Origin: an uncultured Fidelibacterota bacterium
Lineage (GTDB): Bacteria; Fidelibacterota; Marinisomatia; Marinisomatales; Marinisomataceae
Direction: 5' to 3'
Assembly (NCBI GenBank): GCA_902629855.1
Contig: CACOSI010000007.1
Location: 1-37,990 of the forward strand
Length of the DNA stretch: 37,990 bases
In this document: positions 5,380-14,681 of the stretch, piece by piece
How positions within the stretch are numbered: position 1 is the first letter of the stretch
Layout: each line of letters begins with the position of its first letter
Notes under the pieces: generated by a model
Seen by the model: the letters and a program-made list of their open reading frames with translations, nothing else
Told to the model about the DNA's origin: nothing
Databases searched by the model: none
Position numbers and translations under genes: made by a program

Positions 5380-6351
5380 ATGAGTCAAAACGAAAATATA
5401 GATCTTTCAAAGTCAATAATTGAGAGTTTATCAAAGCAGCTTTTAGACGTTGCTGATAATGTAAGTAGTGATATTGATAAGGCTTCAGATTTAATTATTA
5501 ATAATTCTGGCAAGGTTGTTATTTGTGGTTTAGGTAAATCTGGATTAATAGGACAAAAGATAGTTGCAACTTTATGTAGTACCGGTACTAGAGCCGTCTT
5601 TATGCATGCAGCAGAAGCTACTCATGGTGATTTAGGGATCTATAATCCTGGTGATCCTACAATTTTAATTTCCAAAAGTGGAAATACAGAAGAATTAGTG
5701 AGATTGATTCCAATTTTAAAAGAATTTAAATCTCCTCTAATTTCGATAATTGGCAATCTTGACTCAACCTTAGCCAAACATTCTGATATTGTGTTGAACG
5801 GTTCGGTTGAAAATGAAATTGATCCACTTGGCGTTGTACCAACAACTAGTTCATTAGTTGCATTAGCAATTGGTGATGCTTTGGCTTCTGTTTTAATGGC
5901 TAAGAGAGGTTTCGATAAAAATGATTTTGCTAGAAATCATCCTGGTGGAGAACTTGGAAAACAATTAGCATTAAAAGTTGAAACTATTATGCATCCAATT
6001 AATCAGGTTGCTCAAATAACTCCTGAAGACTCAATAAACGATTGCGCAATTTTGATGACCCAAAATCCACTAGGTGCTGCATTATTTATTGATAACGGAA
6101 ATTTAAAGGGGATTGTCACGGAAGGAGATTTAAGAAAATCAATTACGCAAAAAGAAAATCTATCAGATCCGATTGGTGAATTTGTTAATGAAAAACCTAT
6201 TTGCATTCCTTCTACAACTTCTATTTTTGATGCTATGAAAGTGATGGAAGATAGAGAATCTCAAATTTCAGTTTTACCCGTAGTAGATAGTAATAATGAA
6301 TGTATTGGCCTTTTGACCATCCATGATTTATACCAAACTAAATTAGTTTAA
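5380..6351 (+). CDS. kdsD: D-arabinose-5-phosphate isomerase (KpsF/GutQ/KdsD family)
   Basis: Interconverts D-ribulose 5-phosphate and D-arabinose 5-phosphate, the first step of Kdo synthesis for LPS. The 323 residues hold an N-terminal SIS domain (about 38-175) with GLGKSG (50-55), ATHGDLG (80-86), SKSGNTEE (98-105) and NHPGGELG (about 187-194), all diagnostic of this family. Two CBS domains follow (about 205-323), beginning at the conserved IMHP and ending in a GLLTIHDL segment. It stands alone, divergent from the SDR gene with a 60-bp AT-rich promoter gap. Its stop is only 2 bp from the stop of the giant minus-strand gene. Together with the hldE-like gene it indicates an LPS-bearing outer membrane. 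Confidence 0.95.
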   Translation: MSQNENIDLSKSIIESLSKQLLDVADNVSSDIDKASDLIINNSGKVVICGLGKSGLIGQKIVATLCSTGTRAVFMHAAEATHGDLGIYNPGDPTILISKSGNTEELVRLIPILKEFKSPLISIIGNLDSTLAKHSDIVLNGSVENEIDPLGVVPTTSSLVALAIGDALASVLMAKRGFDKNDFARNHPGGELGKQLALKVETIMHPINQVAQITPEDSINDCAILMTQNPLGAALFIDNGNLKGIVTEGDLRKSITQKENLSDPIGEFVNEKPICIPSTTSIFDAMKVMEDRESQISVLPVVDSNNECIGLLTIHDLYQTKLV

Positions 6352-6353
6352 TT

Positions 6354-9300
6354 TTATCGAACAAGAACCATTTTCATGGTCTTATTATAATTACTTTGAC
6401 CATCTACTTTAGTTCTTAATTGATAGAAGTAAACACCACTACTTACTTGTTCACCGTCATCGTTTTTACCATCCCAAATAACAGTATATTGACCTGCTGC
6501 CTTATCGCCTTCATCGAGTTTTCTGACAACTTGTCCAAGTGTGTTATAAATATGAATCTCTGTTGGAACATTATTTACCATTAATGATGGAATATCATAT
6601 TTAATAGTAGTTTGGTTTCTAAATGGATTTGGATAGTTCTGATAAAGTTTAAATTCGTCAGGATTTCTGATTTCCATAATTCCATTACCAGCTAATCCAT
6701 TTTCATTGAATAATTGATAAGTCAAACTTAAATCAAGATTATCAGTTTGATTATTGTCAATGGTAATAATGATTGTATTATCAATATCAGATAATTTTCC
6801 AAATTCTAGTTCATAAAATTCATTATCATCATCTTTGTTCTGAAGAAGTATTAAATCTTCAGTGCTTGTGTTAGATGAAAACTCAATTAAATTATCGATA
6901 TTTGGTAGTTCAAATCTTCCTGCAGTAATACCTTCTGGTAAAGTTATTCTAATTTCATTACCAATTAATTCAGCATTAAAATCAATAGAAATAATTTCAG
7001 AATTATTGTCTTCAACTGATCTACCTTGTGATTTTGTCCATAACCAATTTCTTGCAAAAACACTTACATCTTTAATATCATTTACATTATCAAATGTAGG
7101 AATTAAGTAAGGAGCTGTTCCTGTTGCAGGACCTATATCAACAGCACCTACAACACCTGCATTAGGCCATGCGTTTACAAATGCGTTAAGATCTTCAACA
7201 TCTACATCAAAGTCATCATCATAATCTCCAAGCAGTGCGACATAAGTTGTAAATGTAGCCTCAGCTCCAGGGTCAGAGACGTTTCCACCACCGTCATAAG
7301 CTTCAGCAAGAACAGTATACTCACTTCGGTCAGTTAATGATAATCCAGTAAAGGTCAGATTATCTCCTGCTTCAAATATTTTTTGATCAGAAGTACCTCC
7401 ACCAGTAATAGTAATTCTGTATCCAGCTATTCCCGTGTCATCACTAAATCCGTCAACACTCAAACTTACATCTGTTAATGATTGTAAAATATTTGTGTCA
7501 ACTAAATTGTTTACTGATACAGTTCCAGCAGTTGGATTTACTGTATCTAAGACAAAGGAGTATTCTTCTGTTAATGTCTCATTTCCGTCTGTATCAACTG
7601 CACCAATTTTGTAATACCATTTTTCACCTGAATTTACCTGATGAACATAATTATCAATCATATAGGTTTGAGTATAAACAAATGTTGTATCTGGCCATGG
7701 CGTAGTAGAAGGAGAAGGCTCAAAATGTTGAGAGTTTATATCTCCTAGAGTCCCTTGTCCAAGTAGGGTGGAAGAGTCTGCTGTAAAGCTTTGCGTTAAA
7801 CTACCATATACATTATATGATGAAAAATCACTTTCTCCGTTTCTATTCCAATAAAGTTCAATACCATTATCTGTTACTGTCCATACATTATTAGCTGCAT
7901 CAAATTCAAGATCTCTGGCAATGGTAACACCTTGAGGAGCAGATGGAGCACCCGTTGGATCAAGTTGTCCAGATGTAATTGTTACATTATCAAAGAACAT
8001 ATATCCTTGTTGGGCAGTATTTACCTGAAATGCTATTCTGATTTCAGGTCCATAGTTTGTTAAATCATAAGTATGTTGGGTCCAGCTTGAAGAGGTTTCT
8101 GTTACTTCAGCTAGTACTTCCATATCTTCATAAGCTGTTGTATGATCATTAGCAATTAATACTCTAAATGATTCTTCACCACCATTTGAATTTGTATAGA
8201 AAGTTAACATACTGTCTACACCAGGTCTTAGCCATAAACGTGGGCTCACAATAGCATCGTCAGCTGGTAATGAACCAGCCATACCTAATCCTGACATCCA
8301 ATGACTATTGAAGGCTGCACCATACCCGGCTGTATAATACCACCAGCCAAAAGTTTCAGCATCATTATTTGTATTTATTACTCCCCATGGATAACTCTGT
8401 CTTCCAAAACTATCGAGTCTATTATATGGTGATGATTCAAAACCTTCTTCATATAAAGTATCTTGAACAGCTGTTGCCCAAATTAAATTATTTTTTGTAG
8501 TTACATTTGTATTAGAGCCGTCACCAACAGTTAAAGAAACTGTATAGCGACCTGCGTTATCATAAGTATGCGACGGACTTTGCTCAGTACTTGAGTTACC
8601 ATCACCAAAGTCCCATGCCCAACTTGAAACATTACCAGTTGACCTATCAACAAAGTCAACTTCAAGCGGGAAAACACCGGAAGTTTTACTTGGAGAAAAT
8701 GCTGCATTTAAAGGTGCCGTAGAAGTAAATCCTGGTGAAGTAAACATTCCTCTACCAAAAGTTCCAGCTGACATTTCACCATCATTATTCATAGCCAACA
8801 TGTCTACTCTAACATTTGCTAAACCATCGTTTGATGGATTCCATACAACTGATGAGCTTGTAACATCATCGGACACCCAAACCCCAACTTCAGTAGCGAT
8901 AGCAACTTGATTAAAATTATCTCTATTGTACAGTCCCCATCTTACAGGTATATCAGGAAGGTCCCCTTCAATATCAACCCATCCATTACCACCACCACCA
9001 GAAATAGTTTCATAAATAGAATCTATACCATAGTTTGATAATGTAATTAAAATTTGATTATCATCTTTACCGACATCAATTGAAGAAATATATCCTGAAG
9101 TATTTGATGGGCTAATCTCTGTTATAGCATAGTTGTCAGTATTAGCATCAGTTATTTTAAAAACCCTACCTCCAGCGGTACCAACAAATAGAACACCACT
9201 TGTATGAGGTGAAACTTTATAAGCAGACGCACCTGAACCTAAACTAATATTTATGAAATCATGAGCCGAGAGTTGTGTATAATTTTTTTGCCTTAAAATA

Positions 9301-11081
9301 GTGTCATTGGAAAAAGTTACATACATAGCTTTATTGACAGGATCAATTACGCTTGGATTGATAAAGAACCCTGCATCAGTTCCGTCACTTGCTACAACAT
9401 CTGAATAAAGGCTAAAACTTGTACCACCATTAGTACTACGAAAAATATTTCCGTATGTAGTTGCTCCAAATTGATAGCTCGGATCAATTTGATCAATGTG
9501 AGCATAACCACCGTCACCCCCAATTACTTCATTCCCAACTACTTTACCTGCAACATTTAATCTCCAGGTTCCATTGTCTTGAGTTCCACCTAAAACATAG
9601 CTATCATCAGTTGGATGAATAGCAGTAGAATAAAATTGTGTAGTAACCATATTGTCATTCTTCATTGTGAATGTATTACCACCATCTTGAGTTAAAAATA
9701 CACCACCGTCATTTGATACCAATATATTGTTACTATCTATAAAAATAATATTATGGTGATCAGCGTGAACGTAAGGTAATGGAAATCCATTCCCTCTCCA
9801 TTCAGAAATTTCAGTCCATGTTGTACCTGAGTCGGTTGATTTATGTATGGAAAGCGCACCGGCAGCATATACAGTATTAGGGTCGTTTGGATCAATACCC
9901 AAAAAGCCCCAATAGTCCATGGAACCTTGATAGTCTCCAAACGGATTTCCGTTCTCATCTTGACCAATATTACCTTGGGTCCATGTCGTACCACCATCTG
10001 AAGATTTACCAAACCAAGTTATATATCCTGTTGAAGCATTTTCAAACATCGCATAAAGAATATTTGGATCACTTGGGGATACATCTATAAAGGTTCTATC
10101 AAATTGCCCTAGAGCACCTGTATCAATTTTTGTAAATGTCGAACCATCATCAGTATAAAATATTTCACCTCCACCATCTCCAAATGTATTTACTCTTGTT
10201 CCAACAAGAAGTCTATTGTTTGAATCAATCTCTAAATCAGTAACGTGATGATTTGAGTTCGTGGCTATTTCTCCAAGAACTTCTGTCCAGGTAGTACCGC
10301 CATCAGTAGATTTTTGCAATCCATTAATACCTGTATACTCTCCTTGAGATAGAGATCTTCCGCCTCCAGCATAAACTGCACCAATACCACCTTCGTCCCT
10401 TACAATAATTGTATCAATATATTTTAGTCCAGTTGAAGATGTTAACTGAGTCCAATTTGCTCCTCCATCAGAGGTTTTCCAAATTCCAAATCCTTTAAGA
10501 CCACTACCTCTTTTCTCACCAGTACCAACGTAAATAATATTTGAGTCAGTCGGATCAGAAGCAACACATGTAATATTCAAACTATCCCAAAAATCTGAAA
10601 CCTTTGTCCATTCGGAGCCAGAACTTTCTATGTTTGTAATAGACCAAAGACCACCGCTTACTCCTGCAGCCCAGACTTTCTTATTTGAATTATAATTAGT
10701 ATCTAACATGAGCGCTCTTGTTCTACCAGCTTGTTTGCTTGGGCCACGTTCAACCCAATTAATTTCACTTAATCGATTAGCATATGTTAAGCTATTTAAT
10801 TTTGCATCTTTGATTTTTATAGCTTCTAATATCCTTTCAGAAGGGACTGTATTAGAGCTGGGATCTCTTGTCATTAAAAAGTCATGATAGTTTTTTAAAT
10901 CGGGCCTTAATCTCTTAGGTAGGCTTTTAACGTAACTTCTAGAAAATGATTTATCACTTAAATATTCCTTTAGATATGCTTCATTCTTTAATCTTTTATT
11001 TTCGTAATAAATGTTTTTTGCTGGTTGATAAACTATTAATCCAAGCAAAGTAAAAGCGACTATGTATTTAATTTTTCTCAT
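6354..11081 (-). CDS. Giant exported beta-propeller (Asp-box/VPS10-like) protein with PKD, dockerin-like and T9SS C-terminal domains
   Basis: A 1575-residue surface or secreted protein. It has an N-terminal hydrophobic segment (about 5-20) without a clear A-x-A cleavage site, and an opening WVERGPSKQAGRTRAL like other large exported propellers. Asp-box (BNR) repeats occur at roughly 205, 262, 363, 418, 467 and 550 (e.g. STDGGTTWTE). A PKD domain spans about 789-870 (WDFGDGNSSTEQSPSHTY) and a jelly-roll/MAM-like region about 875-1040. Fibronectin-III-like modules follow to about 1275. A dockerin-like segment lies at about 1284-1346 (GDYDDDFDVDVEDLNAF), then a beta-rich domain. Residues about 1472-1575 form a type A T9SS sorting domain (FKLYQNYPNPF, ending KTMKMVLVR). 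No catalytic residues are recognisable. It starts 4 nt after the cohesin lipoprotein stop, so the two form one operon. Function is inferred as surface binding or scaffolding. Confidence 0.85.
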   Translation of the reverse strand: MRKIKYIVAFTLLGLIVYQPAKNIYYENKRLKNEAYLKEYLSDKSFSRSYVKSLPKRLRPDLKNYHDFLMTRDPSSNTVPSERILEAIKIKDAKLNSLTYANRLSEINWVERGPSKQAGRTRALMLDTNYNSNKKVWAAGVSGGLWSITNIESSGSEWTKVSDFWDSLNITCVASDPTDSNIIYVGTGEKRGSGLKGFGIWKTSDGGANWTQLTSSTGLKYIDTIIVRDEGGIGAVYAGGGRSLSQGEYTGINGLQKSTDGGTTWTEVLGEIATNSNHHVTDLEIDSNNRLLVGTRVNTFGDGGGEIFYTDDGSTFTKIDTGALGQFDRTFIDVSPSDPNILYAMFENASTGYITWFGKSSDGGTTWTQGNIGQDENGNPFGDYQGSMDYWGFLGIDPNDPNTVYAAGALSIHKSTDSGTTWTEISEWRGNGFPLPYVHADHHNIIFIDSNNILVSNDGGVFLTQDGGNTFTMKNDNMVTTQFYSTAIHPTDDSYVLGGTQDNGTWRLNVAGKVVGNEVIGGDGGYAHIDQIDPSYQFGATTYGNIFRSTNGGTSFSLYSDVVASDGTDAGFFINPSVIDPVNKAMYVTFSNDTILRQKNYTQLSAHDFINISLGSGASAYKVSPHTSGVLFVGTAGGRVFKITDANTDNYAITEISPSNTSGYISSIDVGKDDNQILITLSNYGIDSIYETISGGGGNGWVDIEGDLPDIPVRWGLYNRDNFNQVAIATEVGVWVSDDVTSSSVVWNPSNDGLANVRVDMLAMNNDGEMSAGTFGRGMFTSPGFTSTAPLNAAFSPSKTSGVFPLEVDFVDRSTGNVSSWAWDFGDGNSSTEQSPSHTYDNAGRYTVSLTVGDGSNTNVTTKNNLIWATAVQDTLYEEGFESSPYNRLDSFGRQSYPWGVINTNNDAETFGWWYYTAGYGAAFNSHWMSGLGMAGSLPADDAIVSPRLWLRPGVDSMLTFYTNSNGGEESFRVLIANDHTTAYEDMEVLAEVTETSSSWTQHTYDLTNYGPEIRIAFQVNTAQQGYMFFDNVTITSGQLDPTGAPSAPQGVTIARDLEFDAANNVWTVTDNGIELYWNRNGESDFSSYNVYGSLTQSFTADSSTLLGQGTLGDINSQHFEPSPSTTPWPDTTFVYTQTYMIDNYVHQVNSGEKWYYKIGAVDTDGNETLTEEYSFVLDTVNPTAGTVSVNNLVDTNILQSLTDVSLSVDGFSDDTGIAGYRITITGGGTSDQKIFEAGDNLTFTGLSLTDRSEYTVLAEAYDGGGNVSDPGAEATFTTYVALLGDYDDDFDVDVEDLNAFVNAWPNAGVVGAVDIGPATGTAPYLIPTFDNVNDIKDVSVFARNWLWTKSQGRSVEDNNSEIISIDFNAELIGNEIRITLPEGITAGRFELPNIDNLIEFSSNTSTEDLILLQNKDDDNEFYELEFGKLSDIDNTIIITIDNNQTDNLDLSLTYQLFNENGLAGNGIMEIRNPDEFKLYQNYPNPFRNQTTIKYDIPSLMVNNVPTEIHIYNTLGQVVRKLDEGDKAAGQYTVIWDGKNDDGEQVSSGVYFYQLRTKVDGQSNYNKTMKMVLVR

Positions 11082-11085
11082 AATT

Positions 11086-12150
11086 TTATTCTACGTATAT
11101 ATAAACGTTATCCTTACCATTAAATGTCATCTCAGCACCATTTGCATCAAGCATGTAGTTTCCTCCACCTGCAGCTCCAGCAGCATCATCACCCCAAAAA
11201 ACACTGGTATCGGTAGAACCATCAACTGTAAAATTAACAGTAGCAATAACACCATCTCCATCTGAGCTAGGTTGATCGCTTGAAAGGGAAGATGTATAAA
11301 TAATAACTCTACCAACTCCTGGATTACTTGTAATTACAAGTAATGGGTCAGTGTTGCCTTTTAAAAAATCTCCTGCAGTAATATCACCTAATGTTAATAA
11401 GCTATTGTCATATCGAAGCGTAGCTTGTGCTGCAGCCAAGCCAGTTACTCCAACAACCTCTACATCAAAAGATATCGTAGAACCAGTTGTTGTTTCTATA
11501 TATTTAGGATTAAGCTTGAAAGCAGGAGTTTGAAGATCCTCTACAATAATATAAGATGATTTGGTTTCAACTGTTTCTCCTCCATCACCAATGGCTGTAA
11601 GTGAAACATCGAAAGTGCCTGAGCTTTCGTATGTATGTCTTGGGTTTTCTTCTGTACTTGTATTACCATCTCCAAAATCCCATGAAGATGAAGAATAATT
11701 TGATGACCCATTTACAAAATTAACATTATGTGGAACAATACCAGAAATTTCATCTTCAGTGGCTGTAGAAAATTCAGCTATTGGTGCTGTTGCTAATACA
11801 GTAATAAAATCTGTTTTAGTATTAGTATCGGTTCCACCTGGACCAGTTGCTGTTAAAGAAACTGAATAAGTTCCTGCATTATTATATGTGTATGCTACAG
11901 TTGCTCCTGCTGCATCTAAACTTCCATCATTATCAAAATCCCATTGATGAGCTGAGGTATTTGTAGATGTAGATACAAAAGTAACAGATAGAGGAGCATT
12001 ACCAGTTGTCGGAGTAGCAGTAAATATAGCGACTGGTGGATCATTTGTTGGGCCAGTTCCACCTCCAGTGTCGTCTCCGCCACCGCCGCCACCGCCACCG
12101 CCGCAGCCTATCATCATTATTAATAAAAGTGGTAATATTTTTTTGAGCAT
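11086..12150 (-). CDS. PKD-domain lipoprotein with C-terminal cohesin-like domain
   Basis: A 354-residue predicted lipoprotein. The signal peptide ends in a lipobox-like MMIGC with C16 as the acylated residue, followed by nine consecutive glycines (17-25) and a Gly/Asp/Thr linker. Two PKD domains follow (about 38-118 and 123-203; second with WDFGDGNTSTEENPRHTY). Residues about 209-353 look like a type I cohesin: a VTGLAAAQATLRYDNSLLTLG segment split over two strands, then GVGRVIIYTSS, then DGDGVIATVNFTV. The next gene, 4 nt away, carries a dockerin-like segment, so it may be the anchored partner. I prefer ATG 12150 over the TTG two codons earlier. Neither has a clear ribosome-binding site. 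The cohesin call is by pattern recognition only. Confidence 0.8.
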   Translation of the reverse strand: MLKKILPLLLIMMIGCGGGGGGGGGDDTGGGTGPTNDPPVAIFTATPTTGNAPLSVTFVSTSTNTSAHQWDFDNDGSLDAAGATVAYTYNNAGTYSVSLTATGPGGTDTNTKTDFITVLATAPIAEFSTATEDEISGIVPHNVNFVNGSSNYSSSSWDFGDGNTSTEENPRHTYESSGTFDVSLTAIGDGGETVETKSSYIIVEDLQTPAFKLNPKYIETTTGSTISFDVEVVGVTGLAAAQATLRYDNSLLTLGDITAGDFLKGNTDPLLVITSNPGVGRVIIYTSSLSSDQPSSDGDGVIATVNFTVDGSTDTSVFWGDDAAGAAGGGNYMLDANGAEMTFNGKDNVYIYVE

Positions 12151-12201
12151 TAGCAAATCTACATCATAATTTGTTTTTTTTACAACTGAATATTTATGAT
12201 T

Positions 12202-13287
12202 TTACTGAATTTTTTTAAATATTTTGATTCCCCTTGATTTTAAATAACTAAGCAAGAAGTCCGTACATGTTGAATTTGATCCAACAATTTCAGGAGGGGA
12301 AACACCTTTATTATTATACATATCATTTAAAAGCATATTTACTGTAGCTGTAGCAGTATATCCTGTAGTTCTTGCCATAGATGAAATTTTTGTCTTAGAA
12401 CAATATTCGTCATACAAGTGATAATGAATCTTTTTTTCTCCTAAAATATCTATATCTAGAACTGTAAATTCACTTTCATTTTCACCTAATTTCCAATCCA
12501 TGAAAAGTTTTTTTGAGGTTTCATCAATATTATTGTCATCAAACAATCCATCATCTGACATCTTTTGAATTAAATTTGTATGTCCAGGAAATCGCAAGGT
12601 TTTTTCTTTCATGTTTGGTATGTGAGACATCGTTTTTAATAAAGATCTTAGTCCGTCCGTATTAAAACCTTCAAGTTTTCCAACATCTTTTACATCCATC
12701 ATTTCAAGATCTGAAAGAGCTGGTTTGATAATTACTTCACCATTATGCATCATTCTTGCTGGTCTTGTGTACTCTTCAATCACATCAATTGGTGAAAATG
12801 GTGCTTTATAAAAAAAAGGTGGTTCAGGATTTTTCGGTAAACCACCAACAATATAGTTAAATGATTGTATTTTTAATTTTGAGTTCCAATAACCCAATAG
12901 AAAGTTTGGTATGCCTGGAGCAACACCAGCATCAACTACTGCACAGACATTTTTTTTAACAGCTAAATCATTTAATTGAAGAGTATCTTCTGGTGAAAAA
13001 GAAATATCAACGACGTCTTTTTCACAACTAATTATTGTTTCCAGCGTGTTGTACCCTAAAAAGCCAGGTATGGCAAGTAGTACAATATCAGCTTCTTTAA
13101 TAAAATTACTTACTGCATTTTTATCTTTAACATCGAGTTCAAAAATATCGATATCGTTATTTATGCATTTAATATTTTCTAAAAGCTTTTTATTATTATC
13201 AGCTAAATGAACCTTATGATTTTTTGCAAGGTCGAGTGCCATTGCTTTTCCTACAAGACCGGCACCAATTTGGAAGATATTTTTCAT
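12202..13287 (-). CDS. Saccharopine dehydrogenase-like oxidoreductase (lysine 6-dehydrogenase-like)
   Basis: A 361-residue NAD(P)-dependent enzyme with an N-terminal Rossmann fold (GAGLVG at 8-13; acidic residue at the end of the second strand, HLADN). The saccharopine dehydrogenase C-terminal domain contains DAGVAPGIPNFLLG and a GGLPKNPEPPF segment typical of the family. The length and the GGLP region resemble L-lysine 6-dehydrogenase and related amino-acid dehydrogenases rather than the larger bifunctional enzymes. The exact substrate cannot be fixed. The ATG begins 9 nt after the 3' end of tRNA-Asp on the same strand. The downstream cohesin lipoprotein follows after 51 nt, which leaves space for a separate promoter. 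Confidence 0.85.
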   Translation of the reverse strand: MKNIFQIGAGLVGKAMALDLAKNHKVHLADNNKKLLENIKCINNDIDIFELDVKDKNAVSNFIKEADIVLLAIPGFLGYNTLETIISCEKDVVDISFSPEDTLQLNDLAVKKNVCAVVDAGVAPGIPNFLLGYWNSKLKIQSFNYIVGGLPKNPEPPFFYKAPFSPIDVIEEYTRPARMMHNGEVIIKPALSDLEMMDVKDVGKLEGFNTDGLRSLLKTMSHIPNMKEKTLRFPGHTNLIQKMSDDGLFDDNNIDETSKKLFMDWKLGENESEFTVLDIDILGEKKIHYHLYDEYCSKTKISSMARTTGYTATATVNMLLNDMYNNKGVSPPEIVGSNSTCTDFLLSYLKSRGIKIFKKIQ

Positions 13288-13296
13288 GAAGGATTG

Positions 13297-13370
<74 letters not shown>

Positions 13371-13374
13371 AGAA

Positions 13375-13587
13375 TTATTTTTTTAATAATGCTATTGGAA
13401 TTAAAACTAAATATCCAAATAATAGAAGCAGAGGAGAAATAACTAAGCTTTGAAAGCTGTCAACTTCTCCTAAATACATTATCAAATAACCCATAATTAT
13501 AACGAAAACTCCAACACCAAACAAAACATAATTTTTTCTTTTGTAAGGCCAAGTAAGCTGGATATTTTTTTTATTTTCTTTGGTCAT
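13375..13587 (-). CDS. DUF3098 family small membrane protein
   Basis: A 70-residue protein with a charged N-terminus and two hydrophobic helices (about 20-39 and 47-67) ending in a Lys pair. The FGVGVFVIIMGYLIM first helix, the acidic break after it, and the ISPLLLLFGYLVLIPIALLKK end match the DUF3098 family, common in Bacteroidota and relatives and of unknown role. It begins at ATG 13587 and is divergent from mltG, with an 92-bp AT-rich intergenic region that should hold both promoters. tRNA-Asp follows after 4 nt. Confidence 0.75.
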   Translation of the reverse strand: MTKENKKNIQLTWPYKRKNYVLFGVGVFVIIMGYLIMYLGEVDSFQSLVISPLLLLFGYLVLIPIALLKK

Positions 13588-13679
13588 ATCAGGAAGTTAG
13601 TTTTGATAATTATTCTTTGCAAAAATATTATTCCATCCATTGATTTGGATTAATAAATAAGCTAATTTCTTTGCTTCAT

Positions 13680-14681
13680 ATGAAATTTATAAATATGCAG
13701 TCAAATGATTCAAAATTCTACGGTTTATCTTTAATTATCATTCTTCTAACTTTTTTCTTATCGACAAATACACATGTAATAAGTAAACAATCTTTTGTAA
13801 TTGAAAAAGGCATGTCACTTGATAGTGTTTCTACTATGCTGTTTAATCAGAAAATAATTAACAATAAAAATTTATTTAAAGTGAAGGTTATGGCTAAAGG
13901 GCTTTCATCAAAAATCCCTGCTGGTACTTTTGTAGTTGAAGGAAGAGTAAGTGACAAATCTTTAATTGATACGATTTTTAAAGTTGGACCTGTTAAAATA
14001 AAGTTAGTTCTTCCTGAGGGACTTAATTCTAAACAAATCTTTACCAGAATCAATAATCTTTTTGATACTAATATTAATTTTCCAGATTTGATTATAGAAA
14101 ATAGTTTTGTTGAGATTCATAATATACAATCTAATTCTGTTGAAGGTTATTTATACCCGAGTACCTATTATTTCTATCATAATACATCTCCACAAGAGGT
14201 GATCAATACTCTTCTATCAGAATTTTGGAAACAATTTGATATAAAATTACAAAATAGAGCAATTGAGCTAGGATTTACGGTGCATGAAGTATTAACTTTG
14301 GCGTCGATTATCGAAGGGGAAGCAATGCTAGATGATGAAAGAGCAATTATCTCATCGGTTTATCACAATAGGTTAAAAATAAATATGAAATTACAAGCAG
14401 ACCCAACAATACAATATATAATACCAGGTCCACCTAAAGCTGTTTCAACAAGAGATTTAAAAATTAAATCACCTTATAATACTTATATGAATTATGGATT
14501 ACCTCCTGGCCCAATTAATAATCCAGGCCTAGAATCTATAAAAGCTGCATTATATCCTGCAGATACAAATTTTTTATTTTTTGTGGCACAAGGTGATGGT
14601 TCTCATGCTTTTTCAACAAATGAAAAAGATCACGAGAAAGCCAAAAGGATTTATAAGATAAATAAAAGAAAAAATAGATGA
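13680..14681 (+). CDS. mltG: Endolytic murein transglycosylase MltG (YceG family)
   Basis: Cleaves nascent glycan strands in the periplasm and is thought to set glycan chain ends. The protein is anchored by one N-terminal membrane helix (about 15-34). A LysM-like region lies at about 38-90, and the YceG catalytic domain follows with SVEGYLYPSTYYF (153-165), the catalytic Glu E212 in ASIIEGEA, the SVYHNRL segment, LQADPTIQY (239-247) and GLPPGPINNPG. The start is ATG 13680 (333 aa); a TTG three codons upstream and an ATG five codons inside (13695) are alternatives. It overlaps the helicase gene by an ATGA junction, implying translational coupling. Confidence 0.93.
   Translation: MKFINMQSNDSKFYGLSLIIILLTFFLSTNTHVISKQSFVIEKGMSLDSVSTMLFNQKIINNKNLFKVKVMAKGLSSKIPAGTFVVEGRVSDKSLIDTIFKVGPVKIKLVLPEGLNSKQIFTRINNLFDTNINFPDLIIENSFVEIHNIQSNSVEGYLYPSTYYFYHNTSPQEVINTLLSEFWKQFDIKLQNRAIELGFTVHEVLTLASIIEGEAMLDDERAIISSVYHNRLKINMKLQADPTIQYIIPGPPKAVSTRDLKIKSPYNTYMNYGLPPGPINNPGLESIKAALYPADTNFLFFVAQGDGSHAFSTNEKDHEKAKRIYKINKRKNR

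Follow-up and report, generated by a model that had tools for sequence, protein, structure and literature searches.

The cohesin-dockerin interaction is best known from cellulosomes, where it serves as a many-to-one assembly code and the scaffoldins bear multiple cohesins. Non-cellulosomal cohesin and dockerin modules were reportedly described by Peer and colleagues in 2009, and to our knowledge the scattered non-cellulosomal cohesins mostly have no assigned partner; two of them, 2xdh, which we take to be a cohesin of A. fulgidus, and 2w1n, presumably the cohesin-FN3 construct of C. perfringens GH84C, occurred among the structural matches (Foldseek) in this work. In type IX secretion (T9SS), SprB with its SprF/PorP-like partner exemplifies a large exported adhesin-like substrate whose adjacent gene encodes an outer-membrane partner. 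The nearest published case found in our literature search is the cellulosome-like complex of the Cloacimonadota 'Ca. Stygibacter', in which a 3,755-aa multi-cohesin/CBM scaffoldin bears a CTD and the enzymes carry C-terminal dockerins (PMC8542988). The search found nothing relevant on cohesin lipoproteins with T9SS cargo, nor on cohesin or dockerin in Marinimicrobia.

Here we describe a two-gene module in a window of 37,990 nucleotides (the whole stretch of DNA that was analysed) from an uncultured Fidelibacterota bacterium. With the clostridial cellulosome (type I/II, including XDoc) it shares the true cohesin fold, an EF-type loop-helix partner, an adjoining helper domain and, as we propose, the surface attachment of exported proteins. 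However, it has a single cohesin in each protein and a dedicated cargo for each cohesin, a predicted lipid anchor and T9SS export; its cargo lacks a recognised glycoside hydrolase or CBM, its dockerin is half-degenerate and ends in a conserved MWxW-type motif, and its helper domain follows the dockerin instead of preceding it and is itself probably cohesin-like. As in 'Ca. Stygibacter', cohesin and dockerin proteins with CTD surface attachment belong to an uncultured bacterium outside Clostridia, but here the cohesins are single and on lipoproteins, the operons are private, and the CTD is on the dockerin partner (PMC8542988). Like 2xdh and 2w1n the cohesin stands alone outside a cellulosome, but those are scattered, whereas this one belongs to a recurrent order-wide operon with a matched partner. 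The arrangement of a large exported protein with a neighbour-encoded outer-membrane partner resembles SprB and SprF/PorP-like; unlike there, the partner is a cohesin lipoprotein and the sorting domain is of type A, not type B.

Results

The source genome (0.93 Mb, 88% complete) carries the module between two border genes, with the following features.

12202..13287, minus strand: saccharopine-dehydrogenase-like gene, upstream border, outside the module
11086..12156, minus strand: cohesin lipoprotein gene (open reading frame, 356 aa from a TTG start; ATG at 12150)
12103..12105, minus strand: predicted lipidated cysteine, residue 18 (...LIMMIGC-GGGGGGGGG), from the sequence
11542..12039, minus strand: two PKD (Ig-like) spacer domains, residues about 40-205 (PF18911/PF00801 in two stretches, Pfam)
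11089..11529, minus strand: cohesin domain, residues 210-356 (PF00963; PDB matches; AlphaFold (AF2) model; Foldseek)
6354..11081, minus strand: gene of the predicted T9SS-exported 1575-aa propeller protein, the cargo (open reading frame)
8727..10799, minus strand: Asp-box/BNR beta-propeller region, residues about 95-785 (profile against PDB, GH74 and BNR propellers, partial)
8493..8702, minus strand: PKD domain, residues 794-863 (PF18911)
7026..7229, minus strand: dockerin-like domain, residues 1285-1352 (alignments A3/A4; loop statistics; AF2 helices; HHalign)
7191-7226, minus strand: complete calcium loop of the dockerin-like domain (the second loop is without its first two ligands)
6648..6986, minus strand: X domain between the dockerin-like domain and the CTD, residues about 1366-1478 (HHalign; Foldseek)
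6357..6635, minus strand: T9SS type A C-terminal sorting domain (CTD), residues 1483-1575 (TIGR04183; FlgD_ig/Por_Secre_tail; PorU match)
5380..6351, plus strand: KpsF-like sugar isomerase gene, downstream border, outside the module

The lipoprotein stop and the ATG of the cargo gene are exactly 4 bases (aatt) apart. The first-pass annotation had placed a lipoprotein and a 1575-residue exported protein on one strand with this spacing, and both were recovered in these places on the minus strand, the lipoprotein start being moved from the ATG at 12150 to the TTG at 12156. A scan for promoters and terminators gave no signals above the shuffle level.

The lipoprotein sequence has a lipobox, MIGC, followed by a glycine run, and whole-length homologues, which exist within the genus, also have a lipobox (LINC, LISC, MISC or LLSC). 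We regard it as certain, from sequence and modelled fold together, that its C-terminus, noted as cohesin-like before any database search, is a true cohesin: PF00963 matches with E 4.8e-13 and 49.9 bits (cut-off 24.1), the PDB matches to a profile of 16 cohesin relatives are cellulosomal cohesins only (best E 1.8e-9), the AF2 model on 66 homologues reached pLDDT 93.9 and pTM 0.88, and the best 50 matches listed for this model against the PDB by Foldseek are all cohesins (TM 0.68-0.82). No other cohesin, and no multi-cohesin scaffoldin, was found in the source genome at 88% completeness. In other families most cohesin lipoproteins do without the PKD spacers; beyond the genus the usual form is a bare cohesin lipoprotein of ~185 aa (range about 173-235 aa).

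The 1575-aa cargo runs from an exported N-terminus through the Asp-box propeller, the PKD domain and a weak MAM-like match to the dockerin-like domain, the X domain and the T9SS CTD. The sorting domain, already recognised in the first-pass annotation, scores 28.4 bits with TIGR04183 (curated cut-off 23), with FlgD_ig/Por_Secre_tail matches in Pfam and a PorU match in Foldseek, and the T9SS translocon SprA is encoded in the source genome (554 bits). The propeller profile (A6) finds GH74 xyloglucanases and BNR propellers in the PDB with a best E of 2.5e-15 in fragmentary alignment. Membership in GH74 was considered but not adopted, the likeness being confined to fragments in the Asp-box repeats. 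The earlier statement that no glycoside hydrolase is present agrees with Pfam, which finds no GH or CBM family in the cargo, but is too firm, as Asp-box repeats are common to the propeller and GH74; the propeller region may have enzymatic activity.

The dockerin-like calcium loop occupies residues 1285-1297. Across 46 homologues, loop 1 keeps D1 (46/46), N/D3 (43/46), D/N5 (45/46), a hydrophobic residue at position 8 (46/46) and D12 (46/46), and loop 2 keeps D/N5 (46/46), D/N9 (38/46) and D12 (46/46), its ligands 1 and 3 not being kept; the domain has one complete and one half-degenerate loop, not two complete calcium loops. Its AF2 model (pLDDT 87) consists of two loop-helix units, with helices 18-27 and 59-74 and a hairpin inserted between, and HHalign gave 78% in a comparison with bona fide dockerins from the same class, in which the two loops fall in register. 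Pfam found no Dockerin_1 (PF00404) match at E<=1 in the cargo or the source genome, none of 15 homologues reached the threshold (one had E 0.11), no Dockerin_1 was found in the genus, and the best match of a PDB profile search was a dockerin at E 0.39, below significance. Of the dockerin likeness noted earlier, the calcium loop, the loop-helix units and the HHalign likeness stand, but the Pfam cut-off is missed, and on the evidence of alignment and model the domain is best called dockerin-like, short of a proven Dockerin_1 member. In three other families of the same class (f16-f18, G096-G117, 1.1-3.2 Mb), most genomes have 33 to 50 or more Dockerin_1 matches each, and few have a cohesin of the lipoprotein type. 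Since the class includes lineages with at least 50 ordinary dockerins in each genome, the raw material for a dockerin-like domain was at hand.

The X domain, on suggestive evidence, probably has the fold of a remote cohesin, lying in cis to the dockerin-like domain: HHalign against the cohesin profile gave 48% over 89 columns, with three control comparisons at 0.3-1.7%, and the best Foldseek match of the cargo-tail model is the cohesin-FN3 construct 2w1n.

Within the genus, the pair sits between the saccharopine-dehydrogenase-like gene and kpsF in 10 genomes, the source included, with both genes present; in five others (G003, G007, G008, G009 and G019) the border genes directly adjoin and neither module gene occurs, and no interval holds one module gene alone. 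Therefore, the module has been gained or lost as a unit. The pair is fragmented in G012 and G001; a reading of this as gene decay was dropped, as the kpsF neighbour is broken too and assembly indels are the probable cause. One genome (G020) has an extra saccharopine-dehydrogenase-like ORF between kpsF and the cargo gene (L065, 2552-3619, minus strand). One genus member has a second, diverged cohesin and dockerin-X locus (L067, 4086-5264 and 7129-8425; G015:C3:338500-349139), with a separate ORF between the cohesin and tail genes and a tail gene that is broken into two frames.

Additionally, an M43/pappalysin-like metalloprotease carries a dockerin-like, X and T9SS tail (G000:C3, about 11918-14460; L003 1-2358). 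Proteases of this type with that tail occur in nearly all genus genomes, including six without a detected cohesin, and their loops are intact there. The idea that cohesin loss relaxes the protease dockerin loops was rejected, the loops being intact with and without cohesin. The first-pass annotation had counted one domain lacking any counterpart in the genome as evidence against its pairing, and the metalloprotease tail in these six genomes is such a case. Since the protease tail is kept there, it is used with more than the lipoprotein cohesin, and must therefore serve an additional function or have a second partner, for which the cohesin-like X domain in cis is a candidate.

Across the order, profile searches of 85 genomes returned 98 cohesins and 145 dockerin-X tails. 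For the 54 cohesin genes with a tail gene on their contig, the tail lies downstream on the same strand in 52, and the cargo gene starts essentially at the cohesin stop, on the same strand, in 46, about 0.2 being expected by chance; the gene pair looked for in related genomes is thus conserved as an operon order-wide (46/54), besides its joint presence or absence in the genus. Nineteen cohesins on contigs without a tail gene were inspected: for 11 the following gene is on the same strand and is cut short by the contig edge or by masked sequence, 5 lie at a contig end, and the remaining 3 (L162, L163 and L174) are genuine exceptions. A tail gene is present in 58/59 cohesin-bearing and 14/26 cohesin-negative genomes (Fisher p 8e-7). 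The cargo bodies are unrelated, among them a kelch propeller, laminin-G, a beta-helix with a pectinesterase-like stretch and fn3, and Ig-like domains; the conserved part of the cargos is the tail, and the body varies. At three loci (L130, L131 and L133; G051:C14, G053:C15 and G068:C4) one cohesin gene is followed by two giant dockerin-X-T9SS genes in tandem, and therefore one cohesin may serve two cargos.

The domains also diverge in a correlated manner. Among the pairwise distances of 32 pairs, one of them from the genus, the correlations were 0.85 for cohesin-dockerin, 0.79 for cohesin-X, 0.74 for dockerin-X, 0.65 for cohesin-CTD and 0.62 for dockerin-CTD, values to which shared inheritance contributes and in which domain lengths differ and related genomes are non-independent. 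The cohesin-dockerin correlation, between two proteins, exceeds the dockerin-CTD correlation within one chain (bootstrap difference 0.12-0.41; Mantel below 1/5000), and in genomes with more than one pair the partners match better as cognates than when swapped in 7/8 comparisons, the eighth being a tie; operon inheritance accounts for part of this correlated divergence.

Discussion

Based on these findings, we propose, with a probability of roughly 0.58, that the locus is a dedicated one-to-one cohesin-dockerin operon, whose lipid-anchored cohesin is predicted to bind its own T9SS cargo and would hold it. First, the upstream gene would produce an outer-membrane lipoprotein that presents its one cohesin at the end of two PKD spacers, and the second gene a large type IX-exported protein whose tail would comprise the dockerin-like domain, the cohesin-like X domain and the T9SS sorting signal. 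The cohesin could then bind its own cargo through the dockerin-like domain, presumably in a calcium-dependent manner, and the bound cargo would be held at the outer membrane, most likely at the cell surface after export, which we prefer over the periplasm. Such a tether may add to or replace CTD-mediated anchoring, and each cargo would have a private cohesin, with no multi-cohesin scaffoldin involved.

The first-pass annotation had also pictured a lipid-anchored cohesin that could tether the T9SS-exported propeller or its partners at the cell surface. The order-wide operon, the gain or loss as a unit and the correlated divergence fit a cohesin dedicated to its cargo and make the case stronger across the order than the window by itself could show, whereas the tail also occurs where no cohesin is detected; its term 'scaffold' is too strong because there is one cohesin per protein and one cargo per cohesin. 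Against the tether count also the Dockerin_1 score below threshold, the second loop without two of its calcium ligands, the protease tail without a cohesin and the tail's own X domain. Moreover, a T9SS sorting domain can by itself anchor a protein, which counts against the need for a cohesin tether.

An unlikely alternative is that the lipoprotein cohesin is periplasmic and engages the tail ahead of or in the course of export, acting as a chaperone for its particular cargo or as a T9SS recruitment factor, in a role like that of the dedicated partners beside some T9SS substrates. It would fit a single partner encoded immediately upstream of each cargo and a dockerin that adjoins the export signal. 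It would also fit the LpoB/CsgG-DUF5683 gene, a type associated with secretion and the envelope, that directly precedes the cohesin in 59 of the 63 loci outside the genus (for example L074 5614-6609, L075 4713-5795 and L076 9061-10203, with 56 further loci) and makes up, with cohesin and cargo, a three-gene operon. However, no convincing homologue of this gene was found in the genus, where it was lost and the pair kept; the two PKD spacers of the genus suggest reach and not a close adaptor, and in six genus genomes a T9SS cargo has the same tail with no detected cohesin.

The tail bears its own cohesin-like X domain, and therefore the dockerin could be occupied in cis. On this ground the dockerin-like domain might pack on the X domain of the same chain for tail stabilisation only, leaving the lipoprotein cohesin to another ligand, which we consider rather improbable. 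The probably cohesin-like nature of X and the persistence of the tail where the lipoprotein is missing, both in the M43-type protease and in the 14 cohesin-negative genomes that have it, point in this direction, but the order-wide adjacency of cohesin and cargo would be left unexplained, and the correlation of the dockerin with the lipoprotein cohesin (0.85) is no lower than that with the X domain of its own chain (0.74). A bivalent tail of dockerin and cohesin-like X could also join cargo molecules, dockerin to X, in chains on the surface that start from the lipoprotein cohesin as their membrane-bound base, giving a self-assembling fibre or lattice with a private version of the code for each cargo type; this idea is speculative and we give it little credence. 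Finally, that two ordinary surface proteins were merely co-inherited as neighbours, with no interaction, is highly improbable. In its favour, the genes are co-linear and synteny within the genus alone could be plain descent; against it, the adjacency recurs, far above chance, at different sites in many families and with cargo bodies that are unrelated, and the genus genomes carry both genes or neither.

In the preferred reading of a dedicated tether, the recurrence of the pairing across the order suggests that the locking system of cellulose-digesting complexes has been reused one-to-one for widely differing surface proteins. A whole bacterial order thus offers dozens of matched pairs, each of one cohesin lipoprotein and one very large T9SS-exported protein, with the partners named by the operon, and therefore non-cellulosomal recognition, and the specificity between paralogous pairs in one cell, become directly testable. 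If the proposal is true, a non-covalent lipoprotein tether would join the known ways in which T9SS cargo is anchored, and the pairs would provide a new set of possibly orthogonal binding partners.
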